NCBI GenBank assembly: GCA_027490915.1
Contig: JAIXXG010000121.1
Coordinates: forward strand, 1 to 51,671
Length of the DNA: 51,671 bases
Reading direction: 5' to 3'
DNA from: Microbacteriaceae bacterium
Lineage (GTDB): Bacteria; Actinomycetota; Actinomycetes; Actinomycetales; Microbacteriaceae
Below, piece by piece: positions 6,309-42,893 of this stretch (position 1 is the stretch's first letter; every line of letters begins with the position of its first letter). The notes below the pieces were generated by a model, which made no database searches, was not told where the DNA came from, and worked only from the letters and a program-made list of their open reading frames with translations. The translations under genes and the position numbers were made by a program.

Positions 6309-6446
6309 GGCGTAGGCCACACACGAACGGGGAGCGCGTGCTCCTCGACACTCTCGGCAGTCAGGGGCTCGCGAGACTCGTGTCGGCTTCGGCCTGCGGG
6401 CCCAACCGGAGTCGGTTCTCGTTGTCCTATCTATCCACAGGCTCTA

Positions 6447-6474
6447 GGGCCCCCTGGCGCGAGCCGGGGGGCCC
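6447..6474 (+). terminator. Strong GC hairpin with GNRA tetraloop
   Basis: Twelve consecutive pairs (GGGCCCCC, one T-G wobble, GGC) close a GCGA tetraloop, with the partner strand ending at 6474. No T-tract follows, as is common for actinobacterial terminators. It sits 17 bases before the zinc-ribbon gene, so it could instead be a 5' regulatory hairpin of that gene. Confidence 0.6.
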
Positions 6475-6491
6475 TGTCGTAGATTGCCCGC

Positions 6492-6620
6492 ATGGCCACC
6501 GAACGCGACGACCTCGACGACTTGGGGTTGCCGAACTGCCCAGGCTGCTTGACGCCTCTCGTTCTTGATGAAGTGCGCAAGTCTTGGCGGTGCCTTGACT
6601 GCGGGCTCGTGACGCTCTGA
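6492..6620 (+). CDS. Zinc-ribbon microprotein
   Basis: This 42-residue frame from ATG 6492 to TGA 6620 encodes two CxxC knuckles: C16-P-G-C19 and C34-L-D-C37, separated by TPLVLDEVRKSWR. That is a minimal zinc ribbon, preceded by an acidic start. The spacing and composition are too regular for chance. No Shine-Dalgarno is obvious; a long GC hairpin ends 17 bases upstream. Its function is unknown; single zinc ribbons of this size occur as nucleic-acid or protein-binding adaptors. The gene ends about 300 bases before the methyltransferase. Confidence 0.55.
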   Translation: MATERDDLDDLGLPNCPGCLTPLVLDEVRKSWRCLDCGLVTL

Positions 6621-6911
6621 CTGACCACCAGCCTGAAGTCGAGCGCCTGGCTTGCCCCACGGCTATGGGGAAGCCATCCGCAGCCAAGGCAGTCCGGCAC
6701 CTCAACGCGAGGTGCGTTATCAGTCGGGGCGTGTCCAACCGAGGTACTTCGGTGACAGTCATGGACTTTCGAAATCTGACTCTCGAAGGCTGGGCCTCCC
6801 ATCTTCTCATCCGTGCGACCTTGCTTCAAAGGTGCGGCTTTTGTAAGGCGATCGACTGGAGGTCTTGATTGGGTTACGCGCGGCGCTGAAGAACGCTGAC
6901 CAGTAGACCTC
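6621..6911. other. Intergenic stretch before the restriction-modification genes
   Basis: I see no convincing gene in these 290 bases. The open frames present lack sensible starts and composition. No control-protein (C) gene typical of some restriction-modification systems is visible. The last part carries the candidate promoter of the methyltransferase. Confidence 0.4.
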
Positions 6912-6917
6912 TAACCT
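6912..6917 (+). promoter_or_regulatory. Candidate leaderless -10 box of the methyltransferase (TAACCT)
   Basis: TAACCT sits six bases before the GTG at 6924, which has no Shine-Dalgarno. This is the leaderless layout seen repeatedly in this window. Confidence 0.4.
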
Positions 6918-6923
6918 GTACCT

Positions 6924-8831
6924 GTGGCCCCCTCTACTTCTGTCCGTCAAGCGCTCCCTGCGCGGGGCCAGACGAGACCACTCTTGAAGTGGGCTGGCGG
7001 AAAGACTCAGCTCCTGCCTGAACTGACGCAGAAGCTGCCGAAGAAGTACAACAAGTACATCGAGCCGTTCATCGGTGGCGGTGCCCTCTTCTTCTCGCTC
7101 TCGCCGGAGCAGGGCGTCATCGCAGATTCGAACCCGGAGCTGGTTAACCTCTACCGTGCAGTCGCGGTCGATGCTGATGCAGTCATCGAGGCGCTCGGTA
7201 CTCACGTCAACACCAGCGAGCACTTCTATGAGGTGCGCGCCCTCGACTGGAAGGCGATACCGGTTGCGGAAGCCGCGGCTCGCACAATCTTTCTGAATCG
7301 CACCTGCTTCAACGGTCTCTACCGGGTGAACCGTAGCGGAGGATTCAACGCCCCCTTCGGGCACTACAAGAACCCGAAGATTCTTGATGTTCCAGCTATT
7401 CGCGCTGCCGCGGCTGTGCTCAAGCGCTCGACCATCGTGCTGGGTGACTACAAGTCCGTGCTGCTCGAGCACGCGGGCGAGGGTGATGTGGTGTTCCTCG
7501 ATCCGCCTTACCTACCCATCAGTGAGTACAGCGACTTCAAGCGGTACACGAAGGAGCAGTTCTACGAAGAAGATCACCGTGAGCTGGCGGTCGAGGTCGA
7601 GCGACTCCACGAACTAGGCGCGCACGTAATCGTGACTAACAGCAACCACCCCCTCGTTCACGAGTTGTTCCAGGGCTACGAGATAGAGATTGTGCAGACG
7701 AAGCGATACATCAGCAGTGACGCCAGCAAGCGAACTGGTGAGGATGTCATCGTCAACGTTCCCTCGCGGCCGCGCTTCAGCATCAAGCTCGCGCCGGAGC
7801 CGATCAACGATCAGACGAGCAGGTACCCGGCGACCCGGTACATGGGGAGCAAGAACAAGCTCCTCACGCAGATCTGGGCAGTAGCTTCCCAGTTCGAGTT
7901 CGACACCGCCATCGACCTTTTTGGCGGTTCCGGCGTCGTTAGCTACATGATGAAGGCACAGGGCAAGCGGGTCATCAGCAATGACTACATGGCGATGGCC
8001 GCGACTTATGCGAAAGCAATGGTCGAGAACAGCAAGGTTCTGCTTTCCCCGCTCGAGGCTCGCAAGCTCGTGGACACCGAGTGGGGCGGCGACGACTTCG
8101 TTCAGGACACATTCGCAGGCTTGTATTTCACCGACGCCGACAACGCCTTCATTGACAACCTCCGCGCCGGCATCGTGCAGATCAAGAACCCCTACAAGCG
8201 CGCTATTGCCATGAGCGCGCTCATGCGCTCCTGCATGAAGAAGCGACCGCGCGGCATCTTCACCTACGTGGGCGACCGGTACGACGACGGGCGCAAGGAT
8301 CTCGCCATCGGTTTTCGCGAGCACTTTCTCGACGCAGTGCAGCTCGTGAACGGAGCTGTCTTCGATAACGGGCATCAAAGCCGCGCCCGTCATGGGGATG
8401 CCATGACGGTCAGCGCAACCGAGAACTCGCTCGTCTACATCGATCCTCCCTACTACTCGCCGCTGAGCGACAATGAGTATGTGCGCCGATACCACTTCGT
8501 TGAAGGACTCGCCCGTGACTGGAAGGGCGTAGAGATTCAGGAGCACACCCTGACGAAGAAATTCAAGAGCTACCCGACTCCGTTCTCTTCGCGAGTGGGT
8601 GCGGCCGATGCGTTCGACAAGCTCTTCCGTCGTCACCGAAACAGCATCCTCGTCGTCAGTTACTCCTCAAACAGCCAGCCGGGTCTCGATGAGATGGTCA
8701 GCATCATGAACAGGTACAAGAAGCACGTCGAGGTCGTCCCTGTCGATTACCGCTACTCATTCGGTACCCACCGTCACAAGGTCGGGGACAACAAGAACGT
8801 GGTTCAGGAGTACCTGTTCGTCGGATTCTGA
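6924..8831 (+). CDS. Type IIS modification enzyme: fusion of two D12-class adenine methyltransferases
   Basis: This 635-residue protein contains two complete DpnII/Dam-class N6-adenine methyltransferases. Domain 1 (about 20-285) has KWAGGK for AdoMet binding, FIGGGALFF, and the catalytic DPPY at 193-196. Domain 2 (about 300-635) has YMGSKNKLL from 306, DLFGGSG, and a second DPPY at 507-510. Two fused D12 methylases are known from M.FokI, where each half methylates one strand of an asymmetric site; the length here is close to that enzyme. The next gene, an AlwI-like endonuclease, fits the same Type IIS scheme. It protects host DNA from the partner nuclease. The target sequence cannot be read from the protein. 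Confidence 0.88.
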   Translation: MAPSTSVRQALPARGQTRPLLKWAGGKTQLLPELTQKLPKKYNKYIEPFIGGGALFFSLSPEQGVIADSNPELVNLYRAVAVDADAVIEALGTHVNTSEHFYEVRALDWKAIPVAEAAARTIFLNRTCFNGLYRVNRSGGFNAPFGHYKNPKILDVPAIRAAAAVLKRSTIVLGDYKSVLLEHAGEGDVVFLDPPYLPISEYSDFKRYTKEQFYEEDHRELAVEVERLHELGAHVIVTNSNHPLVHELFQGYEIEIVQTKRYISSDASKRTGEDVIVNVPSRPRFSIKLAPEPINDQTSRYPATRYMGSKNKLLTQIWAVASQFEFDTAIDLFGGSGVVSYMMKAQGKRVISNDYMAMAATYAKAMVENSKVLLSPLEARKLVDTEWGGDDFVQDTFAGLYFTDADNAFIDNLRAGIVQIKNPYKRAIAMSALMRSCMKKRPRGIFTYVGDRYDDGRKDLAIGFREHFLDAVQLVNGAVFDNGHQSRARHGDAMTVSATENSLVYIDPPYYSPLSDNEYVRRYHFVEGLARDWKGVEIQEHTLTKKFKSYPTPFSSRVGAADAFDKLFRRHRNSILVVSYSSNSQPGLDEMVSIMNRYKKHVEVVPVDYRYSFGTHRHKVGDNKNVVQEYLFVGF

Positions 8832-38893: not shown

Positions 38894-38947
38894 GCAATGA
38901 GGGCACGAAGTTTTCACGCGACGCCGACGGAGAGCGAGGGGCACCCC

Positions 38948-39172
38948 ATGACGCAGATCACCACCGAGACTCCGGGCGTCGCGACGGCGGCCCTCACCGC
39001 CGTCGACCGGTGCGACAGCTGCGGCGCGCAGGCCTACGTGCGCGCGACCCTCGCGACGGGCGAGCTGCTGTTCTGCGCGCACCACGCAGCGCGCTTCAAG
39101 GAGAAGCTCGCGGGCACCGCGCTGGTCTGGCACGACGAGACGAGCCGCCTGCTCGATGACCGCGGCGCCTGA
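38948..39172 (+). CDS. DUF7455 small zinc-binding protein
   Basis: This 74-residue protein has CDSCGAQAYVRATLATGELLFCAHHAARF: two CxxC/CxxH knuckles forming a zinc site, then a helix. It is widespread in actinobacteria near sigma factor and topoisomerase genes; the function is unknown. The ATG at 38,948 has GAGGGG six bases upstream. Its end overlaps the first racemase-like gene by 17 bases, so the three genes form one transcript. Confidence 0.88.
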   Translation: MTQITTETPGVATAALTAVDRCDSCGAQAYVRATLATGELLFCAHHAARFKEKLAGTALVWHDETSRLLDDRGA

Positions 39173-39842
39173 CCCGCGACCCCGCGACGCGGGCACGGGC
39201 CCCTCGGGCGTGCGGCGGACAGCCTGGCTGTCGCCCACCGCGTTCGACGCGGCGCTCGACGCGCTGGTCGCCCGTGACGGCGAAGACGCACTCGTCGATC
39301 TGCGCGCTGATGCCTACGGGCACGGTGCTGTCGAGGTCGAGCGGCGCGCGCGCGAGCGCGGCATCCGCCGTTTCCTCCGCACGGCGGCGGACGCCCGGCA
39401 CGTGACGCCGCAGCGGCTCGTCGAGCCCTACGGGCTTCTGCCCGGGTCGACGCCGGTGCTGCGCCTCACCGGGGAGGTCATCGCCGTCAAGCGGGTTCCG
39501 GCGGGCACGGCGGTCTCCTACGGCTACACCTACCGCACCCGCGGCGAGGCCACCATCGCGCTCGTCGGGCTCGGCTACGCCGACGGGGTTCCCCGCCTGG
39601 CCTCGAGCAGGGCTCCCGTGCGCGTCGGCGCGGCGACCGGCGTCGTGGCGGGCCGCGTCGCGATGGATCAGCTCGTGGTCGACCTCGGCGAGCACGCCAC
39701 GGGCGCCCAGGCGGGCGACGACGCCGTGCTCTGGGACGACGCCGCGACGCTCTCTGCGTGGGCCGCCGCTACGGACCGCGCGCCCGAAGCCCTCACCGCG
39801 GGGCTCGGTCGTCGCATCCAGCGCCGATGGGGGCTCGGATGA
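39156..39842 (+). CDS. Alanine racemase-like protein A: C-terminal domain with catalytic Tyr, no PLP lysine
   Basis: This 228-residue protein is a shortened fold-III racemase. It keeps the PLP-site sequence but with Arg in place of the Schiff-base lysine (R50 in LRADAYGHG). It then lacks most of the TIM barrel (about 140 residues in Alr) and continues with a full C-terminal beta domain: VPAGTAVSYGYTYRT with Tyr122 (Tyr265 of Geobacillus Alr), GLGYADGVPR, and GRVAMDQLVVDLG with Met170-Asp171. Alone it cannot bind PLP covalently. It is coupled by an ATGA overlap to a second racemase-like gene with the opposite losses, so a heterodimer is likely. Confidence 0.85.
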   Translation: MTAAPDPRPRDAGTGPSGVRRTAWLSPTAFDAALDALVARDGEDALVDLRADAYGHGAVEVERRARERGIRRFLRTAADARHVTPQRLVEPYGLLPGSTPVLRLTGEVIAVKRVPAGTAVSYGYTYRTRGEATIALVGLGYADGVPRLASSRAPVRVGAATGVVAGRVAMDQLVVDLGEHATGAQAGDDAVLWDDAATLSAWAAATDRAPEALTAGLGRRIQRRWGLG

Positions 39843-40882
39843 CCGCCGTCGCCCGCGTCGACACCGCTGCCTTCGCCCGCAACGTCGAGCGTCTCGTCGC
39901 GCGGGCCGCACCGAGCGAGGTGATGCTCGCGGTCAAGGCCGACGCCTACGGCCATGGCATGCTCGACCTCGCTCCCGTCGCCCTCGCGGCCGGTGCGAGC
40001 TCCCTGGCGGTGCTCGAGATCTCGGCCGCTCTCGCGCTGCGCTCGGCGGGCATCCCGAACCGGCTGTTCGCGTGGCTGCACGGAGCCGACAGCGACTTCG
40101 CGTCGGCGATCGAGGCGGACATCGACCTCGGCGTCTCGAGCGGACGCGAGCTGCAGGCGATCACCGCTGCGGCCGCCCAGCTCGGACGACCCGCGCGCGT
40201 GCACCTCAAGATCGACACCGGGTTGCGCCGCAACGGCGCCCTGCCGGAGGACTGGCCCGCGCTCGTCACCGCCGCGGCGTCTGCCGCCGCCGCCAGTCGG
40301 GTCGTGATCGAGGGCATCTGGTCGCACCTCGCGGATGCCTCCGTCGAGGACGACCTGGCCGCGATCGGCGTCTTCGAGACGGCACTGGCGCAGGCCGCTG
40401 CGCTCGGCGTGGTGCCGCCCCTGCGGCACCTGGCGGCGAGCTCCGCCGGCTGGCGCGAACCGCGCGCCCGATACGACGTCGTGCGCTTCGGCATCGCGGC
40501 GTACGGCGTGTCGCCCTTCGACGACCTCACGGCGGCGGACATGGGGCTCGAGGCCGTGATGACCCTCCGCACGACGGTCGCACCCGATGCCGCGCCCGAC
40601 GGGCAGTGCTGGATCGCCGCCGGCTACGCCGACGGCGTGCCGCTCGCGGCGCACGGGGCTTCGGTGCTGATCGACGGCAGGCGCTGCGCGGTCGACCGCG
40701 TCGAGGTCGACCGCACGCTAGTGGCCATCGCCGACCCCGTCGATGAGGGATCGCCCGTGATCGTCTTCGGCGATCCGACCACCGGCGCGCCGACCGCGGC
40801 GGAGTGGGCAGGGTGGGCGAGCACGATCGGCGACGAGATCATCACGGGCGCCGGCGCGCGGGCGCGCCGCGAGGTCGTCTAG
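39839..40882 (+). CDS. Alanine racemase-like protein B: PLP barrel without the catalytic Tyr segment
   Basis: This 347-residue racemase has an intact PLP-binding barrel: Lys33 in VKADAYGHG, KIDTGLRRNG with Arg131, WSHLADA with His163, and VRFGIAAYG with Arg216. The C-terminal domain is degenerate. The stretch before GYADGVPL is about a dozen residues shorter than in protein A and has no SYG, so the counterpart of catalytic Tyr265 is missing, and the MDQ motif reads VDR (290-292). In Alr the Tyr comes from the other subunit, so protein A could supply it. The substrate may be alanine or another amino acid. It shares CTAG with the convergent gatD-like gene. Confidence 0.87.
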   Translation: MTAVARVDTAAFARNVERLVARAAPSEVMLAVKADAYGHGMLDLAPVALAAGASSLAVLEISAALALRSAGIPNRLFAWLHGADSDFASAIEADIDLGVSSGRELQAITAAAAQLGRPARVHLKIDTGLRRNGALPEDWPALVTAAASAAAASRVVIEGIWSHLADASVEDDLAAIGVFETALAQAAALGVVPPLRHLAASSAGWREPRARYDVVRFGIAAYGVSPFDDLTAADMGLEAVMTLRTTVAPDAAPDGQCWIAAGYADGVPLAAHGASVLIDGRRCAVDRVEVDRTLVAIADPVDEGSPVIVFGDPTTGAPTAAEWAGWASTIGDEIITGAGARARREVV

Positions 40883-41628
40883 ACCGCGAGCCCGGCGCGC
40901 CCGAGGCGCCCGGCGATAGCGGCGCGGGCCTGCCGCGCACGCTCATCGGCGAGCAGTGTGCGATCGTCGGCCTCGGGCAGCGCGGCACCCAGCCGGGCGA
41001 GGGCCGCCCCCAGCAGCTCGTCGGCGACGGTCGGGTTCATCGGCAGCACCGGTCCGCCGAGGTGCGTGCCGATCACCGACCCCGAGCGTGCGCCGTCGAG
41101 TGCCGGCTCCTCCTCGCGCGGGCCGTCGCCGCGCCCCCGCTCGAGCACGGCGAACGGGGCGAGCGAGCGCCGGTCGACCTCCACGCCGTGATTCACGAAG
41201 CCGGCCAGCCGGCCCGCCGGGGTCGCCGCGCCGAGCACCTCGCCGACAACGCGGCCCGGGGCATCCCGGATCACGATCGGCAGCACCCCGACGCCGGGGC
41301 GATCCGCGCCGTCTGCGGAGACGATCCGCTCGCTGAGAAGGTGGAAGCCCGCGCCGACGCCGATGATCGGCACGCCCGCCGCCGCCCAGTCGCGCAGTGC
41401 GCTCCCGTGCTCGCCGCTCGCGAGCACCGCCTCGAGCGCCGATCGCGGGCCGCTGCCGATGTGCACGAGGTGCGGCTCGGCGGGCGCGCGGTCGCCGACG
41501 CCGACCTCGTCGACCTGCGCCCGCAGGCCGCGCCAGGTGAGTCGCCGGTCGAGAGCGAGCACATTGCCGCGATCGCCGTTGATGCCGAGCTCGCGCGCGA
41601 AGAGGTGCAGGATGCGCACGGTGGTCAT
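40879..41628 (-). CDS. GatD-like class I amidotransferase-fold protein lacking the catalytic Cys
   Basis: The 249-residue protein has the CobQ/GatD fold: ILHLFARELGINGDRGNVLAL at the start, PHLVHIGSGPRS, and GTHLGGPVLPMNP near residue 187. In GatD the nucleophile lies in GVCGGYQ; here the segment reads IIGVGAGFHLL, with Gly92 at the Cys position, and the protein has no cysteine at all. The His of the YLHGP motif is also replaced (Gly191). Glutamine hydrolysis is therefore excluded by known chemistry of the family. It overlaps the murT-like gene by four bases and is presumably its partner subunit. Confidence 0.85.
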   Translation of the reverse strand: MTTVRILHLFARELGINGDRGNVLALDRRLTWRGLRAQVDEVGVGDRAPAEPHLVHIGSGPRSALEAVLASGEHGSALRDWAAAGVPIIGVGAGFHLLSERIVSADGADRPGVGVLPIVIRDAPGRVVGEVLGAATPAGRLAGFVNHGVEVDRRSLAPFAVLERGRGDGPREEEPALDGARSGSVIGTHLGGPVLPMNPTVADELLGAALARLGAALPEADDRTLLADERARQARAAIAGRLGRAGLAV

Positions 41629-42893
41629 GCGCCGCCCTCCAGGTCGAGGTAGCCCATGCGCAGCCGCAGCGCCATCATGAGCTCGTAGTTGATCACGGCG
41701 ACCTTCGGCCCGTCCTCCGGCGCGGGCAGGGCCAGGAAGGCGTCCACGGCCTCGTCGAAGTCCTCGATCACCGCGCCCACGGGGATGCCCTCGTAGGCCA
41801 GGCGCGTCGCCCACTGCCAGGCTTTCGTGCCGGTGACGACGTCGACGTGATCGAGCGTCGAGAGGTCGGTGTCGTAGATCCAGGAGGGGTCGGGCGTGCC
41901 CTCATCGACGGCCACCATCACCCGCTGCGGCACCCGCCCGAGGGCGTCGAGGTTGAGCTGGAGGCTCGGCGGGTTCTTCATCATCACGAGCTCCACCTGC
42001 TGCCCGCGCGCGTCGATGACCTCGCCGCGCCCGTAGACCGGGGCGAGGTCGGAGATCGCTCCGGTCGCCGTCGCCGTGTCGAAGCGGTCGCCCAGCAGGC
42101 TGCGCGCGGTCGCGATCGCGGCCGCCGCGTCGACGGCGTAGTGCAGACCGCGGGCGGGCAGGGCGAGGGATGCCCGCTCACCGTCCACCGCAAGCTCGGC
42201 CCGCGCGCCATCGACGGAGAGCACCTCCACCACCGCCGCGGGAAGCGCGGCCCCCGGCGCCGCGGTGGCCCGCGGCGCGGCCGCGACGCCGCGCGGGCTC
42301 GCCGCCAGCGCCGCCTCGCTCACGCCGACGACGACCACCTCCTGGTCGGGCCGCGCTCCGCGCCCGAGCTCGGCGGTGTTCGGGTCGGCCCCGTTCACGA
42401 TGACCCGCCGGGTCGCGGCGTCGCGCATCGTGGCGAGCATGCCGTACACGCGATCGGGCTCGTGGAAGCGATTGAGCTGATCGATCTGGAGGTTGAGCAG
42501 CAGCACGTCGCTGGGGGTCAGGCGTCGGGAGAGCCCCACGCCGTACGCCTCGTCGACCTCGAGCACCGCGATGTCGTCGCGCACCCGGCCGTCGAGCGGC
42601 ACGGTCGCGAGCAGCGCGGAGGCGATGCCCTGCGGCAGGTTGGCCCCGCTCGGGTTCGTGAAGACGCGCATGCCGTGGGCGCGGAGAGCGGCGACGAGCA
42701 TGTGCGTGGTCGTCGACTTGCCGTTCGAGCCGGTCACGAACACGACGCCCAGCGGCAGGGAGCCGAGCGCGTGCTCGAGGAAGCGCGGAGCGATCCGCAG
42801 CGCGATGTTGCCGGGGATGGCCGACCCTCCCCCGCGGAGCCGCGCGATCACGCGCACGGCCCGCCCGACGAGCACCGCCAGCCGGATGCGCAT
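41625..42893 (-). CDS. MurT-like Mur ligase without zinc ribbon
   Basis: This 422-residue ligase has an N-terminal membrane-near helix, the Mur ATP site VTGSNGKSTTTHML, LEVDEAYG, LLLNLQIDQLNRFHEPDR and IVNGADPN. Its C-terminal domain (DUF1727) has MMKNPPSLQLNLDAL and DPSWIYDTDLSTL. MurT normally carries a four-cysteine zinc ribbon after the NADDP segment; here that place holds an Ala-rich linker and the protein has no cysteine. In staphylococci and pneumococci MurT/GatD amidates D-Glu of lipid II. With a dead GatD partner, a different acceptor or ammonia source must be assumed. It starts ten bases after sigA. Confidence 0.87.
   Translation of the reverse strand: MRIRLAVLVGRAVRVIARLRGGGSAIPGNIALRIAPRFLEHALGSLPLGVVFVTGSNGKSTTTHMLVAALRAHGMRVFTNPSGANLPQGIASALLATVPLDGRVRDDIAVLEVDEAYGVGLSRRLTPSDVLLLNLQIDQLNRFHEPDRVYGMLATMRDAATRRVIVNGADPNTAELGRGARPDQEVVVVGVSEAALAASPRGVAAAPRATAAPGAALPAAVVEVLSVDGARAELAVDGERASLALPARGLHYAVDAAAAIATARSLLGDRFDTATATGAISDLAPVYGRGEVIDARGQQVELVMMKNPPSLQLNLDALGRVPQRVMVAVDEGTPDPSWIYDTDLSTLDHVDVVTGTKAWQWATRLAYEGIPVGAVIEDFDEAVDAFLALPAPEDGPKVAVINYELMMALRLRMGYLDLEGGA

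Follow-up and report, generated by a model that had tools for sequence, protein, structure and literature searches.

Two adjacent genes divide the features of alanine racemase

We analysed a 51,671-nucleotide stretch of DNA from a Microbacteriaceae bacterium (assembly GCA_027490915.1, contig JAIXXG010000121.1), here called the window, which is contig 126 of a 2.57-Mb genome that is 99.98% complete and lies in 135 contigs. On its forward strand, two overlapping genes encode proteins A and B, both related to alanine racemase (Alr), a textbook homodimer and antibiotic target (D-cycloserine). In ordinary Alr, each of the identical subunits supplies the lysine that binds pyridoxal 5'-phosphate (PLP) to one active site, and Tyr265 and Met312 to the site of its partner. 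The two genes and their key residues, with Alr equivalents, are as follows.

39156 to 39842, forward strand: gene of protein A (228 aa), an alanine racemase C-terminal domain with what remains of the first strand and helix of the barrel
39303 to 39305, forward strand: Arg50 of A in the motif DLRADAYGHG, replacing the PLP lysine (Lys39), which is Lys in ordinary Alr
39519 to 39521, forward strand: Tyr122 of A within SYG, equivalent by alignment to the catalytic Tyr265
39663 to 39671, forward strand: Met170-Asp171-Gln172 of A, by alignment the Met312 motif (MDQ)
39839 to 39842, forward strand: ATGA, in which the stop codon of A and the start codon of B overlap, read from the sequence
39839 to 40882, forward strand: gene of protein B (347 aa), a full PLP barrel, bearing the PLP lysine, and a C-terminal domain without the SYG segment
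39935 to 39937, forward strand: Lys33 of B, the PLP lysine, equivalent by alignment to Lys39
40229 to 40231, forward strand: Arg131 of B, equivalent by alignment to Arg136
40325 to 40327, forward strand: His163 of B, equivalent by alignment to His166
40484 to 40486, forward strand: Arg216 of B, equivalent by alignment to Arg219
40577 to 40609, forward strand: approximate site of the deletion removing the SYG segment from B, from the Pfam C-domain match and gaps in the alignment to 1vfh
40832 to 40834, forward strand: Asp332 of B, by alignment at the place of the specificity residue Tyr354

Protein A has lost most of the racemase barrel. It matches the Pfam family Ala_racemase_C with 103.6 bits, and its match to Ala_racemase_N is a scrap of 15.1 bits, below the cut-off of 24.1. 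Protein B matches Ala_racemase_N with 180.6 bits, its match to Ala_racemase_C starts only at profile position 36, and the SYG-bearing segment falls in gaps of the alignment to Streptomyces lavendulae Alr (1vfh); residues 290-292 read VDR where ordinary Alr reads MDQ. Neither protein reaches the 168-bit cut-off of the NCBIfam family alr (TIGR00492; A 104.9, B 166.3). A has the tyrosine without the lysine and B the lysine without the tyrosine, so that no single chain holds both, and the two proteins summed give the full catalytic set of Lys39, Arg136, His166, Arg219, Tyr265 and Met312. The original prediction, made from this sequence, had described these losses and retentions: all its residue calls are correct, and the ATGA overlap lies where it had been read. 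Asp332 of B and the intact Alr described below were not part of it.

AlphaFold2 models of the single chains predict that both proteins fold like Alr, A as the C-terminal domain and remnant only. The B model (mean pLDDT 93.4, pTM 0.91) aligns with 1vfh over 347 residues (VIA-align Z 44.9, rmsd 1.6), and the A model (mean pLDDT 82.7, pTM 0.78) aligns with Escherichia coli Alr (3b8v_A) over 206 residues (Z 19.0, rmsd 2.5). Elsewhere, the same genome encodes an intact Alr in which nine checked residues are standard, including Tyr265, Met312 and Tyr354; its gene sits in a cluster judged by eye as acpS-like, alr and tsaE-like. The fragmentation of the assembly into 135 contigs might be taken to mean that A and B derive from a single intact gene through an error of assembly or sequencing. 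We regard this as scarcely credible, since each protein has its own C-terminal domain, which one intact gene cannot yield, and since the same layout is present in single-contig genomes (e.g., G282-type 3 Mb contigs, G305 and G269).

The partition of active-site residues is conserved

Using a profile of A, we searched 398 genomes of the family, including Humibacter, Homoserinibacter, Herbiconiux, Subtercola and Planctomonas assemblies, and fetched 80 regions around matches, followed by 20 further regions, chiefly B rows without a listed A plus odd cases. The loci are therefore not a random sample: they were chosen as A-profile matches, as B without a listed A, or from genomes with odd Alr counts, and their count leaves out misparsed Subtercola rows, which are intact genes. 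Short barrel-less A proteins number at least dozens among the matches listed. A survey at the level of the order (297 genomes, including 23 from the family) shows A-type rows in the family only, among the matches listed.

We mapped the columns of ordinary Alr onto 112 A units and 112 B units. Tyr265 and Met312 are present in every A unit, together with Arg290 (111/112), Asp313 (101/112), Arg309 (100/112) and Tyr284 (95/112, the remaining 17 being Phe). The B units all keep Lys39, Arg136, His166 and Arg219, and nearly all keep Tyr43 (111/112) and Lys129 (110/112); among them, Tyr265 occurs in none, Met312 in 1, Arg290 in 5 and Arg309 in 15. As a yardstick, Lys39, Arg136, His166, Arg219, Tyr265 and Met312 are kept in all of 100 intact Alr proteins. 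Recurring as it does in 112 A and 112 B units, this partition is not due to chance. The division follows that of the ordinary dimer, in which the partner subunit contributes Tyr265 and the entryway residues, as described in an excerpt of PMC3485190.

In the Lys39 column, 113 A rows hold Arg (78), Ser (15), Thr (9), Ala (6), Gly (3) or Asp (2) and never Lys; about 15 of these rows are unreliably aligned there, and the motifs read at that place show no Lys. A lysine in A or an SYG tyrosine in B, either of which would speak against the division, is thus seen in 0/113 rows and 0/112 units, respectively. The motif D-x-R-x-D-A-Y-G-H-G (residues 48-57 of the window's A) is conserved in most A units, and contains a new Asp, and an Arg where the PLP lysine was, though A can no longer hold the cofactor.

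The two halves occur together and are naturally fused

A unit of A, B or both is present at 114 loci, and both are present at 110 of them. The four single-unit loci lie at an assembly gap (L038) or are cut by contig ends (L150, L224 and L225). All nine loci that were fetched later have both units. Twelve regions had been taken for B without a listed A; a complete A stands beside B in ten of them, and in the other two A is cut by the contig start or lies beyond the contig end. The 110 paired loci span 27 genus codes, Pseudoclavibacter and three further records. Related genomes, to which the original prediction had looked for co-occurrence, thus never routinely hold one half apart from the other, the exceptions being truncated.

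The tight junction seen in the window is also widespread. Of 93 unfused pairs, 86 offer an in-frame start that overlaps the upstream stop; among the 30 pairs printed, 18 have this start at exactly -4. In addition, 17 loci hold both halves in a single open frame, 15 in the order B-A and two in the order A-B (L192 and L240). Fusions in both orders provide Rosetta-stone evidence of contact between A and B. In Homoserinibacter gongjuensis (L026 and L151), B is frame-broken and A is shortened, reflecting either decay or sequencing error.

Gene order, chromosomal place and residue 354 vary together

The paired loci fall into two classes. In the first, to which the window belongs, the order is A-B (86 loci, two of them fused), and residue 354 is Asp (60) or Glu (23) wherever it is readable. 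A homologue of parE, murT, gatD or rpoD is in view at all 86 loci, and tsaE or tsaD at none. In the second, the order is B-A (24 loci, 15 of them fused), and residue 354 is Tyr in all 23 readable cases; tsaE is in view at 24/24 loci, and parE, murT, gatD and rpoD homologues at 0/24. Gene order, chromosomal place and residue 354 therefore vary together. Since tsaE is a neighbour of ordinary alr, as seen in a Pfam run and in the alr cluster of the window's genome, the Tyr class replaces alr in place.

We took a closer look at 30 chosen genomes and found that 18 have no intact Alr and carry split or fused forms only (eight of genus code g21, three of g74, five of g50, one of g77 (G077) and G015). 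G077 has two complete pairs, one of the Tyr class and one of the Glu class. Among nine of the 18 genomes that were searched, none has a D-amino-acid transaminase above the cut-off, and eight show weak matches below it. D-alanine is required for peptidoglycan. Without an intact Alr, the split or fused enzyme of the Tyr class must therefore serve as the alanine racemase, and this duty is the strongest functional argument for a composite site.

Several members depart from these types. G015 (L138), a 0.9-Mb genome, is an exception to the argument from the Tyr class, since its only pair carries Asp354; its B protein is diverged, with Asn for Tyr43. Two g50 genomes (G332 and G384; L125, L126, L241 and L242) carry unfused Tyr-class B-A genes together with a diverged full-length Alr, which has Phe for Tyr43 and His for Tyr354.

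These observations also bear on whether A takes part in the active site. B keeps every checked cofactor residue, its predicted fold is complete, and Alr is known to become aldolase-like once the tyrosine is lost, so that B alone might catalyse another reaction, as a fold-type-III decarboxylase, aldolase or epimerase, with A as a regulator. This seems very unlikely, as a regulatory A would have no need to retain Tyr265 and Met312, which all 112 units do, and as split forms with Tyr354 replace alr at its ordinary locus in 24 of 24 cases. That the pair is a functionless duplicate in decay is more improbable still: large segments are missing from both proteins and B is frame-broken in H. gongjuensis, possibly through sequencing error, but the losses are reciprocal rather than random, the pair is conserved over 27 genus codes, its gene order is linked to residue 354, and it is the sole Alr in 18 of the 30 chosen genomes.

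The split architecture probably arose at least twice

In a tree of the N-terminal domain (162 rows), the Asp/Glu B proteins group with an intact tandem paralogue (support 98 in a 105-row tree) and are separate from the fusions, the Tyr-class B proteins and canonical Alr. A single clade of all split forms, a group named after the first tree was seen, is rejected (log-likelihood 148 lower, p = 2.3e-7), and the split architecture therefore probably arose at least twice. We claim no more than two origins because neither the Asp/Glu pairs as one clade without the intact paralogue (p 0.176) nor the Tyr split forms as one clade (p 0.34) were rejected, which gives no further subdivision. Non-monophyly alone could in principle reflect one origin with several reversals, which is less likely. 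The tree of the C-terminal domain likewise separates the A groups, on few columns and with several Subtercola rows (intact genes with insertions) mislabelled. The trees left out duplicates (L084-L113, L002, L124, L127-L129, L131-L133 and L136) and canonical rows (L053-L083); the clade tests also left out L138, which has a very long branch, and used Asp-type rows thinned to 30 loci and canonical rows thinned to 26.

Intact tandem genes are present at 16 loci of Herbiconiux, Subtercola and Planctomonas. Both genes have full active sites; the first carries Tyr354 in 15 cases and Trp in one, and the second carries Asp354 in all 16. These tandem pairs suggest that duplication came first, then the change of specificity, then the split. 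A similar arrangement is found in genus code g77, where one locus (L236, in G369) carries a tandem of intact genes, one with Tyr354 and the other with Asp354, and the other fetched members are split; the G369 assembly consists of 260 contigs with 3% contamination.

Residue 354 and neighbouring genes point to a diamino acid

Tyr354 contacts the PLP phosphate in the lysine-bearing subunit of Alr; lysine, broad-specificity and serine racemases carry Thr, Ala and Asn in its place (excerpt of PMC3485190). Because this position, a known setter of specificity, is Asp in B, the substrate of the window's pair is probably not alanine. The residue suggests a basic diamino acid, 2,4-diaminobutyrate (Dab) or ornithine (Orn), as the most likely substrate, a weaker step than that to the heterodimer; an Asp or Glu at 354 could hold the side-chain amino group. 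The original prediction had offered changed specificity as an alternative to the heterodimer, and judging from residue 354 it is probably true alongside it.

D forms of these diamino acids occur in the type-B walls of the family. According to the parts of the cited papers that we draw on, Clavibacter has a D-Dab bridge (PMC9603630); Subtercola has Dab, and Agreia and Frondihabitans have D-Orn (PMC5945732); Microbacterium walls hold D-Orn, L-Lys or Dab depending on the species (PMC10757982); Humibacter cells contain ornithine and Dab (PMC6346192); and Rhodoluna lacicola has D-Dab (PMC4156110).

We also examined the genes around the pair. In the window, these are as follows, with the gatD-like and murT-like names being our assumption.

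38897 to 39172, forward strand: DUF7455 zinc-ribbon-like small protein, upstream neighbour overlapping the A start, found in 80/86 A-B loci
40879 to 41628, reverse strand: gatD-like gene, convergent neighbour, with a homologue in view at 64/86 A-B loci
41625 to 42893, reverse strand: murT-like Mur ligase gene, with a homologue in view at 64/86 A-B loci

Humibacter (G057) and G225 have a 2,4-diaminobutyrate transaminase, scoring above its curated cut-off, directly downstream of B; in G325 and G377 one lies near the pair on the opposite strand. All four pairs carry Asp354. We used this enzyme as neighbourhood evidence only, many pair-bearing genomes, including that of the window, being without it.

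Other genes adjoin the pair in some genomes. A member of an ATP-grasp ligase cluster stands beside the A-B pair in five genomes, four of which also have the diaminobutyrate transaminase (L005 at 6350-8740, L144, L149, L214, L218 and L221; the Humibacter copy is PF14397 by Pfam), and is a candidate for the ligase that joins the diamino acid to the peptide of the wall. In other genomes, an F420 gamma-glutamyl ligase-like gene (L017 at 6348-7232, 28.1 bits with a cut-off of 25, and its cluster members) takes the place of gatD-murT beside the pair.

A probable two-part racemase with one composite site

We infer that A and B form a complex and catalyse together. In the mechanism that we propose, they would together make up one PLP-dependent racemase of fold type III, each being one of its two unequal halves. 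B would be the cofactor subunit, providing the barrel, Lys33, Arg131, His163 and Arg216, and A would be the lid subunit, providing Tyr122, Met170 and Arg147, so that the dimer would have one working composite site instead of two. Its product would be the D form of Dab or Orn that bridges type-B peptidoglycan.

An obligate two-part racemase with a single composite site is strongly supported by the sequence evidence, and a diamino acid is its likely substrate. Taken together, we consider it quite likely that the pair is such an obligate heterodimer, probably acting as a diamino-acid racemase for type-B peptidoglycan. The heterodimer put forward in the original prediction is thus supported, if unproven, by the partition in 112 A and 112 B units, by the pairing at 110 of 114 loci and by the 17 fusions. 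A fuller history would be that, in Microbacteriaceae, an essential fold-III racemase and obligate homodimer turned at least twice, independently, into an enzyme with one site, in which a cofactor half and a lid half are encoded as a gene pair or as a fused chain of either order. One lineage would have become the sole alanine racemase of its genomes at the old locus, and the other, that of the window, would have moved beside parE and gatD-murT, exchanged Tyr354 for Asp or Glu and become the missing PLP-dependent racemase supplying D-Dab or D-Orn for type-B peptidoglycan; we hold this account to be evenly poised.

The same heterodimer might instead act on alanine or another neutral amino acid, as a spare Alr or in wall editing. 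Among solved structures, alanine racemases are the nearest relatives; where intact Alr is absent, the work of alanine racemase must fall to the Tyr354 split forms; and G015 holds only an Asp354 pair. However, the genome of the window already has an intact Alr with Tyr354, Asp or Glu occupies position 354 in 83 of 83 readable A-B loci, and diaminobutyrate transaminases are among the neighbours, which makes such a substrate unlikely.

Several observations weigh against a heterodimeric diamino-acid racemase. The residues donated by the partner are not all divided, as Asp313 is retained in 84 and Tyr284 in 41 of the 112 B units. G015 lacks an intact Alr, and its sole pair is in A-B order with Asp354, a poor fit to a racemase of Dab only. 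Two genomes labelled Rhodoluna sp. have one Alr-type protein each, with Tyr354; given the D-Dab of the R. lacicola wall, some other route to D-Dab must operate there. The supply of Dab is unexplained: no diaminobutyrate transaminase above the cut-off is found in the window's genome (best 233 bits, cut-off 401.6), and most of the family's genomes are without one (above the cut-off in 72/398). We also considered whether DapF could mark an alternative route to Dab, since PddB, a known PLP-independent Dab racemase, belongs to the DapF family (excerpt of PMC8225329); DapF is present in 15 of 15 genomes tested and does not discriminate. Finally, of nine other genomes in the genus of the window, six lack the pair.

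Within that genus, three genomes (L237, L238 and L239) hold A-B pairs with Glu354 rather than the Asp354 of the window. The variation between Glu354, Asp354 and no pair suggests turnover or transfer at one locus.

Significance and comparison with known systems

If the proposed enzyme is real, a site common to two identical subunits has been divided between two different proteins, naturally and repeatedly, and intact, split and fused stages are all still present in one bacterial family. The D-diamino acid bridge of the type-B wall is a taxonomic marker, whose racemase was not found in the literature searched; within that literature, A and B would be the first candidate genes for its synthesis in Microbacteriaceae. 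Our search found neither a Dab racemase from Microbacteriaceae nor a heterodimeric alanine racemase, which is weak evidence, as subscription literature was thinly covered.

The closest known system is Alr itself (TIGR00492; 1vfh and Geobacillus Alr), with which A and B share the predicted fold, the summed active-site residues and the head-to-tail sharing of residues between subunits, proposed for the pair from sequences and described for Alr in an excerpt of PMC3485190. Known Alr forms homodimers in which the two sites are equal, whereas A and B each lack half a site, score below the family cut-off and have Asp at position 354. Because they fall below that cut-off, hold the catalytic set in two chains and lack Tyr354, they are not an alanine racemase in the strict sense, though the enzyme should work like one. 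The lysine racemase Lyr, the broad-specificity racemases Bar/Bsr and the serine racemase VanT resemble B in having the Alr fold with Tyr354 replaced; unlike A and B they are intact and unsplit, and the excerpted account in PMC3485190 gives no Asp or Glu at 354 among them.

In function, the counterpart is PddB, which makes D-Dab in an actinobacterium (excerpt of PMC8225329), as we propose for A and B, and which differs in belonging to an unrelated, PLP-free family with the DapF fold and a cysteine pair. In architecture, the trypanosome deoxyhypusine synthase and S-adenosylmethionine decarboxylase (AdoMetDC) prozymes are similar in that an impaired and a dead paralogue together make a working enzyme; in the excerpts of PMC3663545 and PMC5201418, these are eukaryotic systems of other folds whose activation is described as allosteric. 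In contrast to the prozymes, both A and B would give catalytic residues to the site, and the split recurs as fusions and in what are probably two independent lineages.

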